Virus record (IMG/VR): IMGVR_UViG_3300005613_005073
Coordinates: 1-25,400 of that record
Strand: one strand, 5' to 3'
Length of the DNA stretch: 25,400 bases
Source: a virus
The notes below the pieces were generated by a model that had not been told where the DNA came from, made no database searches, and was given only the letters and a program-made list of their open reading frames with translations. This document shows positions 3,731-25,162 of the stretch, in pieces. Numbering within the stretch: position 1 is the stretch's first letter; each line of letters opens with the position of its first letter. The position numbers and the translations under genes are program-made.

Positions 3731-4851
3731 TCGCATATTTTTTTACCTATATTTTCATAACTGAATTGATCAATCGAATTAATGCCCATCTGCTTTTTTT
3801 CTTCATAAGACTTTCTGTCTTTTTTATATAGACCGTAAACTTTTTGCATACATTCTATCATATTATATATATTGGGTTTATACCAATGTTCGTTGGCGGT
3901 ATAAATATCGAAATCATTAGATAAAGTTCTTTGATTAATAACTACAGGACATTTTTTACTATTTATAACATAGCCATTATCATTATTAATAAAATCTGTC
4001 ATTCCTGTGTTATCTGTAACTATTGGTGTTTTTCCTAAAATTAATGCTTCGGCTGCGGGTCTACAAAAAGATTCTCCGCAAGAAGGCATAACAAAACAAT
4101 CACAAGAGTTATGTAATCCTATCATATCTTTATCTGATAATCTGTCAGTTATTATAATTTCGTTTTTGTATCTTTTTTTAAGATTAAGCTTATTTTTAAA
4201 GCCATCTATTGTTTCTTTTATTCCGTTGTAAGATTGTTTAGAGTTATTTCCGGGATAATTGGTTTTAAGTATAAGAGATACATTATCAGTATCGTTAAAA
4301 GCTAAATGAAAAGCTAATACAAGATCTAGCAGATTTTTCCGCTCAATAAATTCGCCTATGGTATAAAATTTAAAAGTTCTGTCGAGATTAGAATTTAGAT
4401 CTAGTTTATGGGAGGTATTTCTTTTATAGAAATCTATATCTATGGGTTGCGAAATTACTTTAATAGGAACATTAACTCCTGACATTTTTAAACACTTGGC
4501 TTCTTGCTGAGAAGGAACACAAATTTCGTCCATTCCATTGATATTATTAACCGATACAGAATGAGAGAGATTATTTGTCTCCAACATGACTATGCCGATA
4601 TTTTTTTTGATTTTTTTATTTACAGTTAAACTATGAGGTAGGCATTTTTGAAATACAATACCATAATCTGTATAAATAGAATTTTCATATTCTACTATTT
4701 TCTCGTCGATACTGGATAGTGAATTGTTGGTATAATATATAGGTCTACAAGTTAAACTGGGTGTTCGCGTAGATATTGCTTTAATATAATCTCTACTGGC
4801 TGCTCCCCACCCATCATTTTGTCTGTATGGGCCTACAAACAATGTGTTCAT
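3727..4851 (-). CDS. GT4-family glycosyltransferase
   Basis: 374 residues, GT-B fold, with ATGA overlaps on both sides. The N-terminal acceptor domain begins FVGPYRQNDGWGAASRDY, a glycine-rich loop. The linker reads VPSQQEAKCLKMSGV then VISQPIDIDFYKR. The donor domain starts FKFYTIGEFIERKNLLDLV at about residue 161, including the R-K-N that binds diphosphate. The GT4 motif E260-x7-E268 (GESFCRPAAE) is intact and is followed by LILGKTPIVTDNTGM. It should transfer a sugar from a nucleotide-sugar donor in the cytoplasm. Acceptor (virion protein, DNA base or host surface glycan) is unknown. The GT4 family call is strong. Confidence 0.85.
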   Translation of the reverse strand: MNTLFVGPYRQNDGWGAASRDYIKAISTRTPSLTCRPIYYTNNSLSSIDEKIVEYENSIYTDYGIVFQKCLPHSLTVNKKIKKNIGIVMLETNNLSHSVSVNNINGMDEICVPSQQEAKCLKMSGVNVPIKVISQPIDIDFYKRNTSHKLDLNSNLDRTFKFYTIGEFIERKNLLDLVLAFHLAFNDTDNVSLILKTNYPGNNSKQSYNGIKETIDGFKNKLNLKKRYKNEIIITDRLSDKDMIGLHNSCDCFVMPSCGESFCRPAAEALILGKTPIVTDNTGMTDFINNDNGYVINSKKCPVVINQRTLSNDFDIYTANEHWYKPNIYNMIECMQKVYGLYKKDRKSYEEKKQMGINSIDQFSYENIGKKICE

Positions 4852-10551: not shown

Positions 10552-12381
10552 TTATTCTCCTTTTTTTAATAGGTCTTTTATTGTCATAATTTTATCCAGG
10601 TATGCTATTCCCAAGATATCAAATTTAATAATACCAATAGATTCCAAGTCTTGCATTTCCATTCCCGCTATTGTTTGCTTGTTTTTGGAATCATAAACCA
10701 TCGGACAAATATTTTTTAGTGATTCTGAACTAATAGCTATACCAGCAGCATGTTTAGACTGATTGGACTTAACTCCCTCTAATCTTATAGCCTGCTCAAA
10801 TCTTTTTGCAAGTGGTCCTTGTAATTCTCCTTGTTTATCTAAAAAACACCATTCTTTAAGTTTTTCAGATTCATTTTCTAATGCCCACCTAATAATAGAA
10901 GCTTCACCGGTTTCTTCTTTCATAATTTGAAGTTCGTCGGCTATTTTCGATTCTTCTGGTATGTTTTTAGTTATTCTGTTCATTTCTTCAAAAGAAATAT
11001 TTCCATATACTCTTAATACATCCTTTAAGGCCCCTCTTCCCTTAATGGTATTAAAAGTAATCATTTGTGAGACTTTGTCTGAACCATAAGTATCTCTAAT
11101 ATATTGGATAATATCTTCTCTTTTGTTAATCGGTACATCAACATCTATATCAGGCATAGACGACGCTCTTGCCGCATTAAAAAATCTTTCAAATAATAGA
11201 TCGTATTTTATCGGATCGATATCTGTTATGCCTATTAAATAAGACACCAAACAACCAGCAGCACTTCCTCTTCCCGGAGAAGGCATCCAATTATTTTTTC
11301 TAACATATTCAACTATATCTTGCACAATAAGAAAATAACTAGATAAATTAGCCCCCTGCAATATGTCTAATTCTTTTTTGATTCTCTCTACATAAACATG
11401 ATGCTGATCTTCTGGTATAATGTCGGCTATTTTGTCTCTCCATCCGTTTCTACATAATTGTCTCAAGTATTCTACGTCATTATAACCTTCTGGACAAGCG
11501 AATGGAGGTAAATTTGGTGGACTTAGTATTTCATATTCTTCGCACATACTATCAACTAAATTAGTATTTTCTATTTCTTCCTCTGTGTGTAAATTTTGCA
11601 TTTCTTCTTGAGATAATATATGAAAATTATCAGAATTAAAAAACGCCCCCATACCTATTTCTTCGTTATTATTTAATTTACGATTAATATCAGGAAAAGT
11701 CGTTTTTAGATTATTACACAAAAGCACTCTTTGATCAACAGCATCGCTTTTTCTGCAATAATGAGCATCTGGAGTGCAAACTATTTTAGTATTAGTAATT
11801 TTAGATAATTCTCTTATACAGTCTGTTAGTGGGGATTGTATTTCTAAATTGTCTTTATCCATTAACTGGGATTCTAAGAAAAAGTTATCTTTACCAAAAA
11901 TGTCTTTAAATTTTCCTATAAGGTTTATACCAACATTTTTCCAATCAGAAATTATAGAGTCATTTTCTACTAATTTAGAGGCAATAGTTGACCCAAGATG
12001 CCCACAAATTCCTATCAAGTTCCCGTCGATCAGTTCAGCTAAAGAGTTTAAGTCTAATCTGGGTTTATGATAGTAATAGTCTGGTCGATTAGATTCTGAA
12101 ACAATTTTTATAAGATTTTTCCATCCGTCATAATTTTTAGCCAAAACAAGAAAGTGAGTTAAAGACCTATTATCCTTTTCTTGTATGCTTGCGTTTTGTT
12201 CGCATATATATAGCTCACAACCAAGAATAGGTTTGATTCCAGATTTTTTCATCTGGCCATAAAATTTAATCGCACCAGAAATATTGCCGTGATCTGTTAA
12301 AGCACATGATTTGGCTCCTATTTCTTGACATCTTTCTGCAATCTGTATCGGTTTACTAAGACCATCCAAAAGTGAATACAT
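10552..12381 (-). CDS. dnaE: DNA polymerase III alpha, N-terminal PHP and palm fragment
   Basis: 609 residues from the ATG at 12381. The PHP domain is seen in YSLLDG, LTDHGN (29-33), PILGCE, THFLVLAKN, and CTPDAHY (202-208). The palm carries SPGRGSAAGCLVSYLIG (368-384) and PDIDVDV with D411 and D413. The third catalytic Asp is D588 in IIKFDILG, so all three palm carboxylates are here. The ORF ends 21 residues later, before the fingers, with no intein. The usual beginning of the PHP domain, including the H-x-H metal ligands, is missing from this ORF. It is found just upstream in a second short frame (see 12382-12434). Start at 12381 is therefore doubtful. Confidence 0.9.
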   Translation of the reverse strand: MYSLLDGLSKPIQIAERCQEIGAKSCALTDHGNISGAIKFYGQMKKSGIKPILGCELYICEQNASIQEKDNRSLTHFLVLAKNYDGWKNLIKIVSESNRPDYYYHKPRLDLNSLAELIDGNLIGICGHLGSTIASKLVENDSIISDWKNVGINLIGKFKDIFGKDNFFLESQLMDKDNLEIQSPLTDCIRELSKITNTKIVCTPDAHYCRKSDAVDQRVLLCNNLKTTFPDINRKLNNNEEIGMGAFFNSDNFHILSQEEMQNLHTEEEIENTNLVDSMCEEYEILSPPNLPPFACPEGYNDVEYLRQLCRNGWRDKIADIIPEDQHHVYVERIKKELDILQGANLSSYFLIVQDIVEYVRKNNWMPSPGRGSAAGCLVSYLIGITDIDPIKYDLLFERFFNAARASSMPDIDVDVPINKREDIIQYIRDTYGSDKVSQMITFNTIKGRGALKDVLRVYGNISFEEMNRITKNIPEESKIADELQIMKEETGEASIIRWALENESEKLKEWCFLDKQGELQGPLAKRFEQAIRLEGVKSNQSKHAAGIAISSESLKNICPMVYDSKNKQTIAGMEMQDLESIGIIKFDILGIAYLDKIMTIKDLLKKGE

Positions 12382-12434
12382 AGACTCACTTAAGAATGGA
12401 CATGAAGCGGCACATAATGTCGCTCTACGCCCAT
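12370..12434 (-). other. True dnaE 5' end with 11-nt interruption and hairpin (candidate bypass site)
   Basis: AAGGAG (12443-12448) precedes ATG at 12434 by 8 nt. The frame reads MGVERHYVPLHVHS and stops at TAA (12390-12392). YVPLHVHS is the conserved PHP start that should be followed by one residue and YSLLDG. That continuation starts 9 nt past the TAA, in another frame. Removing the 11 nt TAAGTGAGTCT gives HVHS-MYSLLDG with correct spacing. The last sense codon, TCT (12393-12395), is repeated just before the resumption point (12382-12384). AAGTGAG pairs with TTCACTT (12370-12376 with 12385-12391, one G-U) around an 8-nt loop. This is the layout of a take-off codon, stop and matching landing codon. 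Confidence 0.6.
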
Positions 12435-12472
12435 CTTATATTCTCCTTATTTTGAATTTTTTAAAGATAATT

Positions 12473-17523: not shown

Positions 17524-17923
17524 TCAATAGTCTTTCTTTCCATTTGTCTATATCTTCATTAAATGGTAGCTCTATATACTGAATACCGTTTAGTTCGCAC
17601 CATTCTTTTTTTTCTTTGTCTCTTTTTTTATGTCTCAAAAAACCTAGCTTATCTTTATGGAAAAATCTACTATATTTGTAATGCTGTTCTCCGTGTATTT
17701 CTATGCATTTTTTTGTTAACGGCAAATAAAAGTCCAAAATCAATTTTTCTCTACTTCTTAATGGTATGGATATTTCTTCTAATATTTGCAGAGTAGGAAA
17801 ACATTCTTTAATTAAATTTCTTGCCTTTAAATGAAAAGAAGACTTGTCTGTTTGAGAGCCATGAGATATGCCTCCAATTAATTTCCAATGATGAGAATTT
17901 CCTTCTAGGTCTTTGACTTGCAT
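17516..17923 (-). CDS. Vsr-like / PD-(D/E)XK small endonuclease beside recA
   Basis: 135 residues. The core reads HLKARNLIKECFP, then EEISIP, LILDFYLPLTKKCIEIHGEQHY, then KKRDKEKKEWCELNGIQYIELP. A Glu-bearing helix, an Asp strand, a strand ending in E-x-H-G-E-Q-H, and a basic helix followed by 'G-I-x-Y-I-x-L' match the Vsr / very-short-patch-repair-like fold. EDxHD homing endonucleases share that fold. The ATG lies inside the recA 3' end (19-nt overlap), so it is probably translated together with RecA. It could be a recombination nuclease kept by the phage or a domesticated homing enzyme. Confidence 0.75.
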   Translation of the reverse strand: MQVKDLEGNSHHWKLIGGISHGSQTDKSSFHLKARNLIKECFPTLQILEEISIPLRSREKLILDFYLPLTKKCIEIHGEQHYKYSRFFHKDKLGFLRHKKRDKEKKEWCELNGIQYIELPFNEDIDKWKERLLNE

Positions 17924-19962
17924 GAGATACCCATTGTTTCACGAAGCTCTACCATAAGTTTATCATAAACATCTGGGTTGTCAACAACGAATTGTCTTAA
18001 TTTTTCTGTTCCCTGAAATTTAGGCTTGTCTTCTAATGAGGATAATGTATACCATGATCCACCCTTAGATATAATACCAAAATCTATACACAAAGTAACT
18101 AGCTCCATAGATTTATCAATACCTTCACCATATCTTATGAAACTTTTAATATTCCCTCCTGGAGGACCCAATGCTGAACATAACACTGACCAATCTACCT
18201 CTTGTCCTATTTGTGGACCATCAGAGCCACTATGCCATGCTTTGAACATTTTTGCTCTTAATTTAACATCGGTTTGATAGGCAATAGCTTGTCCACTTTT
18301 TTCCTTCCATTCTACATTTCCGTATCCAGGATTACCCATAAGGTGAGTGATACCAATAACTATATTTCTATTTACGGGAATAACATTAGCAACTTTTCTG
18401 CAAAATTTAGCTAGTAGTTTAGCTCCATCTGCTCTTTGCATTTTATCCATATCACTTGTAATTTCGGCCTCGGTACATAAAGCAGAATATGAGTCAATAA
18501 TCAATATTGATCCTGGTTCTTCGTTAATTATTCTCTCAGCTATTTGTAAATATTCTTCTGCATGTAATATTTTACCTTGCTGAGATCCTATTACGTCAAA
18601 ACGATCCAAATCTAAACCCGGTATACCTTCTAAGTCTCTCTTTTTCAGTCTACCTTCTATGTTTAGATAATACACTCGTCTAGGTTCTTTCAGATCGCCT
18701 TGATATTCTGGTTTTTGTGCAGTTGCGGAGAAGTCTAATGAAGTGGTTGTATTGTGTGTTACGATGAAATTATTTGTAAGATATAAACCATCTGGACTAT
18801 CAACTTCTATACAAACAGATTCTTCTGGTTTGACTTTTTTGACCCCAACTATTGTTCTACAAAGATCGGGTTTGGTTCTTTTGTTTCCGCTTTTCTTTCT
18901 TGGTAAACTGAATAATTTATCAATATCATTACCATGAATGTATAGTCTATATGATGGAAATTTTTTGCCCTCCTTGCCTTGATATCCAGTAAATCTGTGT
19001 TTAATTCTACAGGTGTATCCTAAGCTTTCTAACACTTCTTGAACATCAAGACTTAATTGTTTTGATACTGTGGTATACTCAGCTCTTAATCCATTGTCGT
19101 TATTTCCATCAGTATCCATTAATCCACGTATTAATTTCCATCTATTATTTAGGGAAGCATATTTGTAGCACTTGGGTATGAATTTTTGATGACCATTATG
19201 ACCGTATAGGTTTAATTTTCTAAGATCTCTAGTTAATGTGTTTTTAACCAACGTGTCAGAATCTATTTTTCCACTAATAATGTGTTCTACACGCGAACGA
19301 CTTTTAAGGGATAATCCCCTAGCTTTACAAAATTCTTTAAATTTGTTGATAATAAATTCATCAATGCTAGCTAAAGAAGGGGTTCCTTTAACAAAAGAGC
19401 CGTCTCCAATTAAACATCCAAGAATATAAGAATCTATTATTAGTTTCTTTTTCTGTTTAAAATAAACAGGTTTAGTTAAAGGTATTTTCCACTTCCATCT
19501 ATCACTATATCTCAAGCCTTCTTTTAATATTTCTTCTAATGTCATGGTTACATAATTAGTTTTTCTATTATTTTTTGAAACTGTCCAATTATGTTCTAAA
19601 CCGCAACGAGATATCGATCCATCATTAAACTTTACTTCATAAATATCTTTTTTACCTTGCGGGTATACTCCTATTACATTGGAAGTTTTTCCACCAGGAT
19701 GGCATAATATATCACCAATTTTAATTTTACCTATGGTATTAGGTCCATTAATAGTATATACTTTTTCATGTATATATAAATCTTTACCACATTTTGGCTG
19801 GCCAGTAAAAACAACAAAACTACCTTCTGGTATACCTCCATTTAATACAATATCCAAGGCGGGACTTACTGGAATTGTGATTGATTCTTTATCTACAACA
19901 GATGTAGCAGATCTGATGATGTCGTCGCCAAATTTTTTCTTTACGTCTTCTTTTAATGCCAT
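17905..19962 (-). CDS. recA: RecA recombinase with class 3 intein in the P-loop
   Basis: 685 residues as translated, about 341 after removal of a 344-residue intein. N-extein: IPVSPALDIVLNGGIPEGSF then FTGQPKCGK at 53-60. C-extein: TTTSLDFSATAQ, so splicing restores Walker A GQPKCGKT. Further RecA features are VYYLNIEGR, ILIIDSYSALC (Walker B), KLLAKFCRK, ITHLMGNPGYG (L2-like region), and GGNIKSFIRYG. It drives strand exchange and recombination-dependent replication. Because the intein splits the ATP-binding loop, the precursor cannot be an active ATPase until splicing. TAATG overlap with the upstream gene fixes the start. Confidence 0.95.
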   Translation of the reverse strand: MALKEDVKKKFGDDIIRSATSVVDKESITIPVSPALDIVLNGGIPEGSFVVFTGQPKCGKDLYIHEKVYTINGPNTIGKIKIGDILCHPGGKTSNVIGVYPQGKKDIYEVKFNDGSISRCGLEHNWTVSKNNRKTNYVTMTLEEILKEGLRYSDRWKWKIPLTKPVYFKQKKKLIIDSYILGCLIGDGSFVKGTPSLASIDEFIINKFKEFCKARGLSLKSRSRVEHIISGKIDSDTLVKNTLTRDLRKLNLYGHNGHQKFIPKCYKYASLNNRWKLIRGLMDTDGNNDNGLRAEYTTVSKQLSLDVQEVLESLGYTCRIKHRFTGYQGKEGKKFPSYRLYIHGNDIDKLFSLPRKKSGNKRTKPDLCRTIVGVKKVKPEESVCIEVDSPDGLYLTNNFIVTHNTTTSLDFSATAQKPEYQGDLKEPRRVYYLNIEGRLKKRDLEGIPGLDLDRFDVIGSQQGKILHAEEYLQIAERIINEEPGSILIIDSYSALCTEAEITSDMDKMQRADGAKLLAKFCRKVANVIPVNRNIVIGITHLMGNPGYGNVEWKEKSGQAIAYQTDVKLRAKMFKAWHSGSDGPQIGQEVDWSVLCSALGPPGGNIKSFIRYGEGIDKSMELVTLCIDFGIISKGGSWYTLSSLEDKPKFQGTEKLRQFVVDNPDVYDKLMVELRETMGISCKSKT
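18751..19782 (-). other. RecA intein, class 3, with LAGLIDADG endonuclease domain
   Basis: 344 codons, RecA residues 61-404. The first residue is Asp, not Cys or Ser. Block B has CGLEHNW (H124, W126), block F has ESVCIEV (C384), and block G has VTHN (T402-N404) before Thr+1. Trp, Cys and Thr form the WCT set of class 3 inteins, where the block F Cys starts splicing. The two LAGLIDADG motifs are LGCLIGDG (D187) and RGLMDTDG (D285), both with acidic residues intact. The endonuclease may therefore be active in homing. Confidence 0.92.
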
Positions 19963-21825: not shown

Positions 21826-22400
21826 TAATCGATCTTCTCTGCGATATACAGTTTCCATTCATCTGGCATGTCTTTCCTTATAGTAGACAGATAGTATGTA
21901 ACATGCAAGTATTTTTTGGTTTTTTGTGGTATGACGGGCTTGTTTTTCAATTGCATATTTGCCTGCTGTAAAGTTTTGTTTCCCTTCCTACAATTACATT
22001 TAAAACATGCAGTGACTATGTTAGTCCATGTCGTGGCTGTTTTGTTCTTATGTGGCCATTTAGATTTTGGTATAACGTGATCGTATGTTAACTGGTTGAT
22101 CGGTGGTTTTTGACCACAATATTGGCAAGTAAAATCATCTCTAGTAAATAAATTTTTTCTAGAAAAATTAACAGATTGATTATGAACTTTAAAATATTTT
22201 GTAGTTTTAATTACTGCAGGTATATTTAGTTTTTGATTAACTCCAATAACATGATCATTTTTGTAATATTCTATAATTTCAATTCCAAAATAATTAGAGT
22301 GATTATATCTAAATGACCAAACCATGGACTTTCTCCAATCGATAATGCCAATCGGAGAATAGTCCGCATTTAATACTAAACAATCATTATGGTATTTCAT
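21825..22400 (-). CDS. HNH endonuclease
   Basis: 191 residues, ATGA overlap with PhoH. The family N-terminus CLVLNADYSPIGIIDWRKSM is followed by the HNH core: FTCQYCG (C92, C95), LTYDHVIPKSKW (D107, H108), TTWTNIVTACFKCNCRKGN (N127, C132, C135). The Cys pairs bind a structural zinc and the D-H/N set cuts DNA. This type occurs in phages and bacteria near replication genes, and may act in genome processing or homing. Residues appear intact, so it is probably active. Confidence 0.88.
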   Translation of the reverse strand: MKYHNDCLVLNADYSPIGIIDWRKSMVWSFRYNHSNYFGIEIIEYYKNDHVIGVNQKLNIPAVIKTTKYFKVHNQSVNFSRKNLFTRDDFTCQYCGQKPPINQLTYDHVIPKSKWPHKNKTATTWTNIVTACFKCNCRKGNKTLQQANMQLKNKPVIPQKTKKYLHVTYYLSTIRKDMPDEWKLYIAEKID

Positions 22401-25162
22401 AACCTATTAACTATATCTGCTATTATTGGATTTCTAACAATATCAGAAATTTCTAATTCAGAAAAACCTATACCTTTAACCTGTTGTAGTCTTTGAATAA
22501 TATCTCTAAAACCTTCTTTTTGATACATTTGAAGGTCTGATTGATCTAAGTCTCCTGTTAATACCATTTTACTGTCAATGCCTATGCGTGTCAAGAGCAT
22601 TTTTAATTGATCGTAAGAAGCATTTTGACATTCATCTGCTATTATAAAGGCATTATGAAAACTTCTACCTCTCATAAGTCCAAGCGGCACTATTTCTATT
22701 TGATGAGTATTTTGTAATTTTCCTCGATGTCGATCAGATAGAAAATAATTAATTTCATCAAAAAGAGGTAAAAGATAAGGATGTAATTTTTCTTCGGCTG
22801 TATTATGGGTTACAATAAAATCATCTGTTATATAAAGATGCTCTGGATTATTTACTTTAATACATTGTACTTCTTTTTGGCATATTTTTTCTATTTTGTC
22901 TATACCAATTTTACGTCTACTAGTACCATTTATTATTCTTTCTGATTTTCTTGGTAAATAAAATGGGTTTATTCCGTTAGGTAGTCTAATTGTGAACTCA
23001 TAAGACACTCTTCTTGCTGTTATTTTTTTTTGATTTTCTGGTCTGATAGATGTTTTACCAATTCTATCTCTAGTTCTTAGATTGGCACTCCCGCCCAAAG
23101 ACCTAACCAGTTCTATTACATCTAAAGCTAGTCTTTTAGAAGTTGTACAGAATGACGACTCTCCTATTTTTTCTCTTATGGTGCCATCTGTGTCCATTAA
23201 TCCTCTTAATATTTCTATTCTATCTTCTATATTTGAATATTTGTATATGTCTGGAATAAATTTTTCCCAAGCTTTTTTATATAATAGCCCGAGTTTAGAT
23301 ATCTCATCTTTAATATTATAAGCTATTCTATTACCTTGTTTAGAAACCATATATCCTGTTTTATTCAATTCTAGATTCATTTTGTCTACCAGGTCTTGAT
23401 CATTTGAAGCAAAACCTATATAATTACCAAAAGATCCGTCTCCTAATAAAACACCTAATATATAGGGATGTATTGGAAGCTGTTGTTTATTTAGCTGTGC
23501 TGGTTCGCTGAACGGCAGAAAATGATTTATTTTTCCCTTATTATTTCTTAGGGTTTCTAAAATCTCTTTTGTTGATCTTACTTGTCCATTTTTCCCTCTT
23601 TTTTGTTCTTCTGCTGTGCTAGTATACCACAAATGATCTAAGCAACATTCTGTAGATCTGCCGTCTGTTGTAGTAATTTTATATACATCTTTCTTACCTT
23701 TTGGATAAACACCAATAACTTTAGTTGGTTTCCCATCCCTGCTTATCACTTCATCTCCGACATTAAGATCTCCCATAAGACTCCAGCCATTTGGGGTTAA
23801 TACCTTAGCATCTAATGGTTGTGGTCCTGGAAGAAAACCTAATTTTTCTCCAGCTTCTACAATAGGTCTGGTAATAACTACTTTTTTAACTTTATGATCA
23901 AGTAAATATTCTAATGCCATACCAACAGCTATATGCGTGTTGTGTGTAGGAATATAATTATCTGTTAAATATAAGCTGTTTTTATGGTCTACTGTTATGC
24001 ATTGCATTTCTTTATAGCCAAGTTTTTCAACTCTATCTACATATAATTTTGGAAAATATTTAGTTCTGGGAGTTTGTTTTCTCTTTTTTCTATCTAAAAA
24101 GAAAATAGATATATCGTTAGGTAAAGAAATATGACATCTATAGCTGGTTCTATGTCTGCCACCATCTGTTTTTAAAGACCCTTGTTTGGATCTTATTCTG
24201 GTTGTCCCTCCCAATGAGTAGACTAATTCGCAAAAATCTTGAGCTAACCCATATGAAGTAGTAGAATATGATGCCGAGCCTTTTTTGGTTACAGTCCCAT
24301 CCCCATCCATTAATCCTTGCAATAATGCTATTCTTTGGTCTATTGAACCATATTTATATATTTCAGGAATGCGTTTTTCATAAGAATATTTGCCCCACAA
24401 CCCTAAAATTTTCAATTCTTCTTTATATATATTATTCTTAGAAGATCTTTGTTTTTTGACTATTCTATGATCTAATTTTTCCTTGGTTTTGATAGTATAA
24501 TTATTATCAATCAAAGAGCCAACCTTGCTTAGTATTTCGGATTCACAGGTTGAAAAAACTACATTGCCATTTGTGCAATTTCCTTCGGAAATTATAATAC
24601 CTAATAGGTATGGGTCTATTATATATGTTTTTCTATCGAAATTAACTGGCTTGGTGCATTCTATTGATAAAACTCTTTTATCCTCATGTCCTCTACAATT
24701 ATTCATTAAGTATTTTGTGTTTACTACAATTTTGTTTTTTTTCCTGTGGTGTTTTATCTCCCACAAATGTTCTTCACAACAATCAACATAAGTATCATTA
24801 CTAAAATAAACCCTAAAAACCTGTCGTTTTCCTTGTGGATAAATAGCTGATACTTTAGAAAAAGAACCATCTGGATTAGCTATTTCATCTCCAATTTTTA
24901 CTTCACCCATAGTAATTGGGCCATTTTTAGTGAATAATTTGGAATTTAGAGTTAGAGCTTTACCAGACCCCGGAACACCTTGGCAAAAAGTGATCACGTT
25001 TTCTGCTACAGTGCGTATATACTCCTTTTGATTAACAGATCTCGGTTTGAGTCTGTTTTTAAATCCTACGATTATATCTTCAGGTTTTTCAAATCCGTCT
25101 TTTTTATTGTCTAGAACACTAAAGTTTTTATTGGTATTATTGCGATTTTTTCTTTTTCTCAA
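22397..25162 (-). CDS. phoH: PhoH-like ATPase containing two class 3 inteins
   Basis: 921 residues as translated, about 240 after removal of two inteins (340 and 341 residues). The start is TTG at 25162 with GAGG 7 nt upstream. N-extein ends TFCQGVPGSGK (58-68). The middle extein is THIAVGMALEYL to EKLGFLPG (409-446). The last is TAEEKLHPYLLPLFDEI onward, with LMRGRSFHNAFIIADECQN (Walker B) and LTGDLDQ. Spliced, it is a standard PhoH P-loop NTPase with Walker A GVPGSGKT. PhoH is widespread in phages, with a role in RNA or nucleotide metabolism still debated. It lies between an apparent RNR and the HNH gene. Confidence 0.93.
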   Translation of the reverse strand: MRKRKNRNNTNKNFSVLDNKKDGFEKPEDIIVGFKNRLKPRSVNQKEYIRTVAENVITFCQGVPGSGKALTLNSKLFTKNGPITMGEVKIGDEIANPDGSFSKVSAIYPQGKRQVFRVYFSNDTYVDCCEEHLWEIKHHRKKNKIVVNTKYLMNNCRGHEDKRVLSIECTKPVNFDRKTYIIDPYLLGIIISEGNCTNGNVVFSTCESEILSKVGSLIDNNYTIKTKEKLDHRIVKKQRSSKNNIYKEELKILGLWGKYSYEKRIPEIYKYGSIDQRIALLQGLMDGDGTVTKKGSASYSTTSYGLAQDFCELVYSLGGTTRIRSKQGSLKTDGGRHRTSYRCHISLPNDISIFFLDRKKRKQTPRTKYFPKLYVDRVEKLGYKEMQCITVDHKNSLYLTDNYIPTHNTHIAVGMALEYLLDHKVKKVVITRPIVEAGEKLGFLPGPQPLDAKVLTPNGWSLMGDLNVGDEVISRDGKPTKVIGVYPKGKKDVYKITTTDGRSTECCLDHLWYTSTAEEQKRGKNGQVRSTKEILETLRNNKGKINHFLPFSEPAQLNKQQLPIHPYILGVLLGDGSFGNYIGFASNDQDLVDKMNLELNKTGYMVSKQGNRIAYNIKDEISKLGLLYKKAWEKFIPDIYKYSNIEDRIEILRGLMDTDGTIREKIGESSFCTTSKRLALDVIELVRSLGGSANLRTRDRIGKTSIRPENQKKITARRVSYEFTIRLPNGINPFYLPRKSERIINGTSRRKIGIDKIEKICQKEVQCIKVNNPEHLYITDDFIVTHNTAEEKLHPYLLPLFDEINYFLSDRHRGKLQNTHQIEIVPLGLMRGRSFHNAFIIADECQNASYDQLKMLLTRIGIDSKMVLTGDLDQSDLQMYQKEGFRDIIQRLQQVKGIGFSELEISDIVRNPIIADIVNRL
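22802..23824 (-). other. PhoH intein 2, class 3, at LPG/T
   Basis: 341 codons, PhoH residues 447-787, first residue Pro. Block B CCLDHLW gives H510 and W512. Block F EVQCIKV gives C767. Block G ends VTHN (T785-N787) before Thr+1. LAGLIDADG motifs LGVLLGDG (D575) and RGLMDTDG (D659) are intact. The insertion site is inside the conserved GFLPG-x-x-E-E-K loop, away from the P-loop. Confidence 0.9.
23939..24958 (-). other. PhoH intein 1, class 3, in the P-loop
   Basis: 340 codons, PhoH residues 69-408, first residue Ala. Block B CCEEHLW gives H132 and W134, block F EMQCITV gives C388, and block G ends PTHN (T406-N408) before Thr+1. The second LAGLIDADG motif is normal (QGLMDGDG, D288), but the first reads LGIIISEG with Glu193 where Asp is usual. 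It breaks Walker A between Lys and Thr, the same position as in RecA. Confidence 0.92.

Follow-up and report, generated by a model that had tools for sequence, protein, structure and literature searches.

Efficient, selected translational bypassing in bacteria and their viruses has until now been essentially the property of one gene, T4 gene 60. For gene 60, PMC11194080 describes an A-site stem-loop that prevents release and attributes the loss of pairing to the action of EF-G. The recorded cases comprise T4 gene 60, which lies beside the HNH gene mobA, the mitochondrial byps, a candidate in the Hau3 terminase gene, synthetic stop-hops, and an unconfirmed hop in Prevotella (PMC5009743, PMC3014915). 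Shorter-distance counterparts with matched codons have long been presumed, and natural in-frame stop-hopping was not known as of the same source (PMC5009743).

Judged by its sequence and that of its relatives, the dnaE start described here very probably represents a programmed translational bypass in a replicative polymerase gene, brought in with a mobile HNH endonuclease gene. It lies in the window, by which we mean the whole 25,400-nt stretch of viral DNA that was analysed (Table 1). The first-pass annotation had described a Shine-Dalgarno (SD) sequence, an ATG at 12434, a PHP start, an immediate TAA, and a continuation in another frame, and all of these were present when the sequence was re-read. 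From 12381, reading resumes as ATG TAT TCA CTT TTG GAT (MYSLLDG), in a frame that differs from that of the leader. Removal of 11 nt does restore HVHS-MYSLLDG, as had been proposed: without the leader, the Pfam PHP match begins at profile position 8 and scores 112.5 bits, and with the leader joined across TAAGTGAGTCT it begins at position 2 and scores 127 bits. The two UCU codons, one before the stop and one before the resumption point, were both found. The hairpin placed at the stop region, with one G-U pair, exists, but it is 8 bp long rather than 7 (AAGUGAGU/AUUCACUU, loop CUAUGU), and an enclosing second stem, P1, of which the window forms 7 of 8 pairs, had been overlooked, as had the linked endonuclease gene and the mobile history.

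Table 1. Features of the interrupted dnaE start and of the three-piece dnaE intein in the window.
Feature	Position	Strand	Remarks
Shine-Dalgarno AAGGAG of the leader ORF	12443..12448	-	Within the HNH-gene 3'-end remnant
Leader ORF, 14 codons from ATG 12434	12393..12434	-	MGVERHYVPLHVHS; PHP-domain N-terminus with both H-x-H ligands
Proposed take-off codon UCU	12393..12395	-	UCY at that position across the family
Stop TAA	12390..12392	-	Directly 3' of the take-off UCU
11-nt gap TAAGTGAGTCT	12382..12392	-	Bypassed in the proposal; opens with the stop codon
Proposed landing codon UCU	12382..12384	-	Would be in the P site after the hop, with ATG 12381 next
Inner hairpin P2	12370..12391	-	12391-12384 pairs with 12377-12370; loop 12383-12378
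Outer stem P1	12360..12401	-	12401-12394 (GUCCAUUC) pairs with 12367-12360 (GGAUGGUC)
dnaE continuation, 609 aa	10552..12381	-	Rest of PHP plus Pol III alpha NTPase domain
N-extein and N-intein	9686-8787	-	
Separate LAGLIDADG ORF	8599-8141	-	
C-intein and C-extein	8151-7024	-	

A conserved interruption of related phage dnaE genes, which the first-pass annotation had raised, does exist. Using the downstream part alone as a protein query, we retrieved 80 IMG/VR loci, 13 of which (ten distinct gap-and-flank sequences) are interrupted at exactly the window's point and nearly all the rest of which run uninterrupted through HxHSxYSLLDG. Pattern scans and further protein scans brought the collection to 48 distinct interrupted starts, the window counted among them, from over 50 metagenomes (a manual count based on contig names), alongside 94 distinct uninterrupted ones; when only starts found through protein similarity are counted, 19 of 113 distinct starts are interrupted. 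The insert always falls after H-V-H-S and before x-Y-S-L-L-D-G. Beyond these metagenomic loci, cultured phages yielded no relative at 60% identity or above and no megablast match, and of 47 hits in GTDB genome contigs one was a true case, L195, whose contig had been binned into a Chitinophagia MAG. The L085 protein, used as a query, retrieved itself alone, and an all-against-all tblastn of these loci returned no other conserved interrupted gene on the sense strand.

The leader and the polymerase body are both coding and under purifying selection. In the leader, the Y-x-P-L-H codons, which lie outside the stems, have a pN/pS of 0.17, with residues kept and synonymous sites varying (five codons in use for Leu, three for Pro). 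For the body, close interrupted pairs whose alignments are free of indels give a pN/pS of 0.04-0.17, two further pairs inflated by unaligned indels being set aside. Directly beside the gap there is synonymous constraint, as pS over YSLLDGL is 0.48 in interrupted alleles against 0.89 in uninterrupted ones; the synonymous rate is normal from seven codons downstream, with pS over the next 40 codons at 0.73 in both groups. In three distant relatives (L338 near 3491, L341 near 5320, and L389 near 7563), the PHP H-x-H motif is lost (e.g., INCKTHFSL, FPLKNFTHYSLL), and PHP activity therefore seems dispensable in part of the phage group. That some divergent relatives tolerate a degenerate PHP motif counts against the bypass explanation.

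These observations bear on termination followed by reinitiation, in which the 14 codons would form a leader or regulatory peptide, synthesis would restart at AUG 12381 or at a UUG in the second Leu codon, and the first PHP strand would be missing. We regard this as unlikely. An ATG does follow the gap immediately in the window, and reinitiation at polycistronic junctions is frequent among phages, but restart at ATG 12381 fails family-wide because the resume position holds CAT, CAC, or GAA in 36 of the 48 alleles (CAY 34, GAA 2, ATG 12). The UUG at the second Leu codon is present in nearly all interrupted alleles (CUG in a few), yet by inspection no SD lies at a usable distance 5' of it. The restart site, moreover, would be hidden rather than opened by the hairpin, the H-x-H motif would be thrown away, and the leader codons Y-x-P-L-H keep the PHP residues despite their synonymous variation.

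Gap length is 7 nt in 1 allele, 8 in 3, 9 in 11, 10 in 16, 11 in 15, and 12 in 2, which by remainder modulo 3 gives 13, 17, and 18 alleles, so that all three frames are represented. The insert opens with a stop in 48/48 alleles (TAA 25, TAG 21, TGA 2), and the residue at which the protein resumes is identical whatever the gap length. A fixed frame relation between the two ORFs is ruled out for the family by the same three classes. Frameshifting or stop readthrough, leaving a few extra residues in the protein, could accommodate the 9-nt-gap alleles, which can be read in frame; as an account of the family it is very improbable, because three frame classes and three stops mean that no fixed frameshift or redefined stop yields the same protein, and gaps of 7-12 nt fit no single shift. 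Nor is the would-be added peptide conserved. The original preference for bypass over a -1 slip is therefore upheld by the spread of gap lengths, the use of UAA, UAG, and UGA alike, and the fixed protein flanks. Gaps that cover three frames and three stops between constant flanks fit only a hop to a fixed landing site.

The codons on either side of the gap are also restricted. At the take-off position, UCY is found in 47/48 interrupted alleles against 34/94 uninterrupted ones. When the scan was relaxed to accept every Ser and Thr codon at take-off, every codon at V, and every stop, it added a few alleles, each with a UCY take-off; chance hits aside, it returned no other take-off codon among real dnaE starts. 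The landing triplet is UCN in 25 of 37 unique cores and NCN in 35 of 37, and the 12 non-UCN cores, which count against the bypass explanation, have ACU (7), GCU (3), UUU (1), or UGA (1). Take-off and landing match in the window (UCU/UCU), and in about one third of the family they match only partly. With UCY take-off and NCN/UCN landing fixed, the two ends are therefore as needed for re-pairing by one Ser-tRNA. The most divergent interrupted alleles, L120 and L206, resume with GAA; their landing triplets are UGA and UUU, where re-pairing is poor or by wobble, and these alleles offer a natural test of how exact re-pairing must be. In L402 (3787-3824), an interrupted-type leader is followed only by TCT TAA TCT, a 6-nt in-frame gap without the inner hairpin, and this allele is either the remains of a decayed element or a natural stop-hop in minimal form.

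The hairpin of the insert is conserved as a selected RNA structure. In 40/40 unique interrupted cores, the minimum free energy fold is the same nested hairpin, a take-off stem-loop that involves the stop codon; the folding z averages -5.69 (range -8.4 to -3.0), whereas the corresponding segment in uninterrupted alleles averages -0.36. The resemblance to T4 gene 60 noted at first reading (a stop beside the take-off codon, and a hairpin) is thus seen in every core. The 5' arm of P2 contains the stop codon, its 3' arm is formed by the Ser-Leu codons of the resumed frame, and the resume codon sits in the loop. Over 37 unique cores, 216/222 P2 cells are paired, against a permuted mean of 192 and with 0/10000 permutations as high; these permutations are uncorrected for relatedness, for which the slid and uninterrupted controls correct partly. 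In the slid controls, 30-53% of cells are paired, compared with 98.6-99.3% in the true register. Compensatory P2 swaps are GUGA/UCAC, GAGA/UCUC, GCGA/UCGC, and ACGA/UCGU, and the Tyr codon alternates between UAU and UAC in step with the facing gap base (A/G). P1 (GUCCAUUC with GGAUGGAC, 8 bp) is complete in 34/37 interrupted alleles, compared with 5/94 uninterrupted ones.

That the gap is enclosed by a strong conserved hairpin could also suit its removal at the RNA level, with the 7-12 nt leaving as a tiny intron or by hairpin excision and ligation, and RNA repair enzymes are often encoded by phages. There is scant probability in this explanation: matching UCN/NCN triplets at both ends are what tRNA re-pairing, not cutting, leads one to expect; a 3' cut within the apical loop would resemble no known splicing motif; and Rfam returned no match to the element. 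Least probable of all is an inactivating insertion or assembly error that left a broken polymerase start, for although one lone contig would appear identical, 48 alleles from more than 50 metagenomes share the insertion site, the structure, and an intact ORF downstream. Assembly error is ruled out by dozens of independent contigs (including L117, from a different metagenome, with the window's exact gap), and inactivation is incompatible with the purifying selection on the ORF (body pN/pS 0.04-0.17 in close interrupted pairs).

Under the favored explanation, programmed bypass, we infer the hop itself and the order of ribosomal events as follows. The ribosome would make 14 residues (MGVERHYVPLHVHS) and halt with Ser-tRNA on UCU. 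The UAA, paired in the P2 hairpin, would then lie at or beside the A site, and release factors would be unable to read it because of this pairing. The peptidyl-tRNA would release, skip 11 nt, and re-pair with the UCU in the apical region of the hairpin, after which decoding would restart at AUG UAU UCA and produce HVHS-MYSLLDG, preserving the PHP metal-binding motif. Both the hiding of the stop by P2 and the re-pairing of Ser-tRNA with the apical NCN triplet are suggested by analogy with known bypassing. P1 may slow the ribosome before take-off; at take-off itself it must be open, its 5' arm being by then inside the ribosome, and this counts against the proposal. At the level of sequence, two ORFs, a gap between them, and resumption in any frame are all found. 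A T4-style nascent-peptide signal about 30 residues before take-off is absent from the leader of 13-14 codons, and would be impossible because only 13-14 residues have been made by then; that the leader is shorter than the long signal of gene 60 requires also counts against the proposal.

The presence or absence of the insert at its fixed site (48 against 94 alleles) is out of step with the tree of the host gene. The two kinds of allele are intermixed in the polymerase tree, with 22 changes, at least 12 of them forced by well-supported branches, and a single clade of interrupted alleles is rejected (p-AU 1e-25). The window polymerase itself is closest to the uninterrupted L001-L005 (~82% amino acid identity). 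Within the clade of interrupted L067 and L118, L044 has an uninterrupted dnaE and yet an interrupted-type leader and SD region, and its junction joins CATTCT directly to CAT, as expected after precise loss of the gap. This pattern fits repeated gain and loss through homing or recombination.

The region 5' of dnaE differs between the two kinds of allele. The start of uninterrupted dnaE usually overlaps the stop of an upstream PD-(D/E)XK gene, whereas an interrupted dnaE is preceded by an SD of its own and has a leader that opens M-(G/D)-(V/M). At several interrupted loci, an ORF of about 240 aa lies between the PD-(D/E)XK gene and dnaE and ends in the first leader codons. All 8 of its members match the PHROG HNH endonuclease and endonuclease VII profiles; no Pfam family scored above cut-off, a sequence search of the PDB returned nothing meaningful, and the AlphaFold model is poor (pLDDT 63) and too weak for a fold search. 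Eight intact HNH homologues at 56% identity or more (L316, L318, L307, and L319-L323) each lie directly 5' of an interrupted dnaE; L321 and L322 are among these eight and stand outside the 48-allele set. Truncated copies persist in L014, L266, L120, and others. The window has a 3' remnant and not the HNH gene proper: AATAAGGAGAATATAAG, just before the leader, is identical at 17/17 positions to the 3' end of the intact L134/L316 HNH gene. The link between endonuclease and bypass is not absolute, as L324 has an intact homologue (3995-4696, 48% identity) directly 5' of an uninterrupted dnaE, and L297, a second exception, has an HNH remnant beside one.

The best reading, by analogy with T4 mobA/gene 60, is that endonuclease and bypass element form a mobile cassette. 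The element would have come with a mobile HNH gene inserted just 5' of dnaE, and we infer protection from cleavage, in that the gap splits the endonuclease target and probably shields the host gene, as the T4 mobA/gene 60 gap does. In the window, the endonuclease would later have been lost, leaving its 3' end, which is the present SD region, and the hop element. More broadly, and with less assurance, we lean towards an RNA-driven hop module of ~45 nt that works without a long nascent-peptide signal, was spread repeatedly by the endonuclease into the polymerase of this phage group, and made replication depend on the hop.

The window is crowded with mobile elements. Its dnaE is divided (12381-7024, minus strand): the PHP and NTPase subunit ends at 10552 and is followed by a 61-aa ORF, a DnaQ-like exonuclease, and the fingers part. 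Across the first 80 relatives, the N-part matches over much the same length; in L297/L346 and L329, HNH genes occupy the gap between dnaE subunits. The fingers and C-terminal part (9686-7024, minus strand) carries an intein in three pieces (Table 1); the arrangement resembles that of a natural split intein, here with an endonuclease lying between the halves. Also on the minus strand, a RecA-like ORF (17905-19962) is interrupted by a LAGLIDADG-containing insert that appears to be an intein, and two apparent inteins lie in a PhoH-like ORF (22397-25162).

If the hop holds, interrupted dnaE would bring a large new family of natural cases to ribosome hopping, a phenomenon with very few so far. Among its roughly 50 natural alleles, the gap takes six lengths and opens with one of three stops, the landing codon matches in some and not in others, and the element has been gained and lost in nature; the rules of hopping thereby become directly testable, including the role of the hairpin, the exactness of re-pairing, and the need for a nascent peptide. 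It would also be a second pairing of an endonuclease with a bypass gap, this one in an essential replication gene, suggesting a general strategy by which parasitic DNA protects its host site. Ordinary gene finders are likely to miscall the interrupted polymerases. We found no dnaE bypass or family of short phage bypass elements in the mostly open-access papers searched.

Among the described systems, T4 gene 60 shares with the dnaE element a stop directly after the take-off codon and inside the take-off stem-loop, a position near the 5' end of a DNA-metabolism gene with an HNH endonuclease gene 5' of it, and a gap that is missing from most relatives (PMC5009743, PMC3014915, PMC11194080). The differences are considerable. 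The dnaE gap is 7-12 nt, compared with 50 nt in gene 60; its landing site lies within the hairpin rather than after it; a second, enclosing stem pairs both coding flanks; the hop would follow only 13-14 codons, without a distant nascent-peptide signal; and take-off is from Ser UCY instead of Gly GGA. The gene is also a different one, dnaE, and its dozens of natural alleles include three different stops and six lengths of gap. The byps of Magnusiomyces capitatus mitochondria resemble the dnaE inserts in being short, corrected by bypass, and sometimes imperfect in the match of take-off and landing (PMC5009743). Byps are reported to be largely independent of mRNA context and belong to a relaxed mitochondrial decoding system, whereas the dnaE insert occupies one phage site and, unlike byps, combines a stop codon with a strongly conserved RNA fold. 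The Hau3 terminase candidate is likewise a phage gene with a proposed coding gap far shorter than that of gene 60 (PMC5009743). It requires a UUA codon and a proposed nascent peptide, unlike the dnaE element, and its description in PMC5009743 includes neither a family of stop-codon hairpins nor an endonuclease link. Finally, synthetic stop-hops also cross a stop between matched codons, as TCT TAA TCT in L402 would, but they are constructs without the selected structure of the dnaE element.
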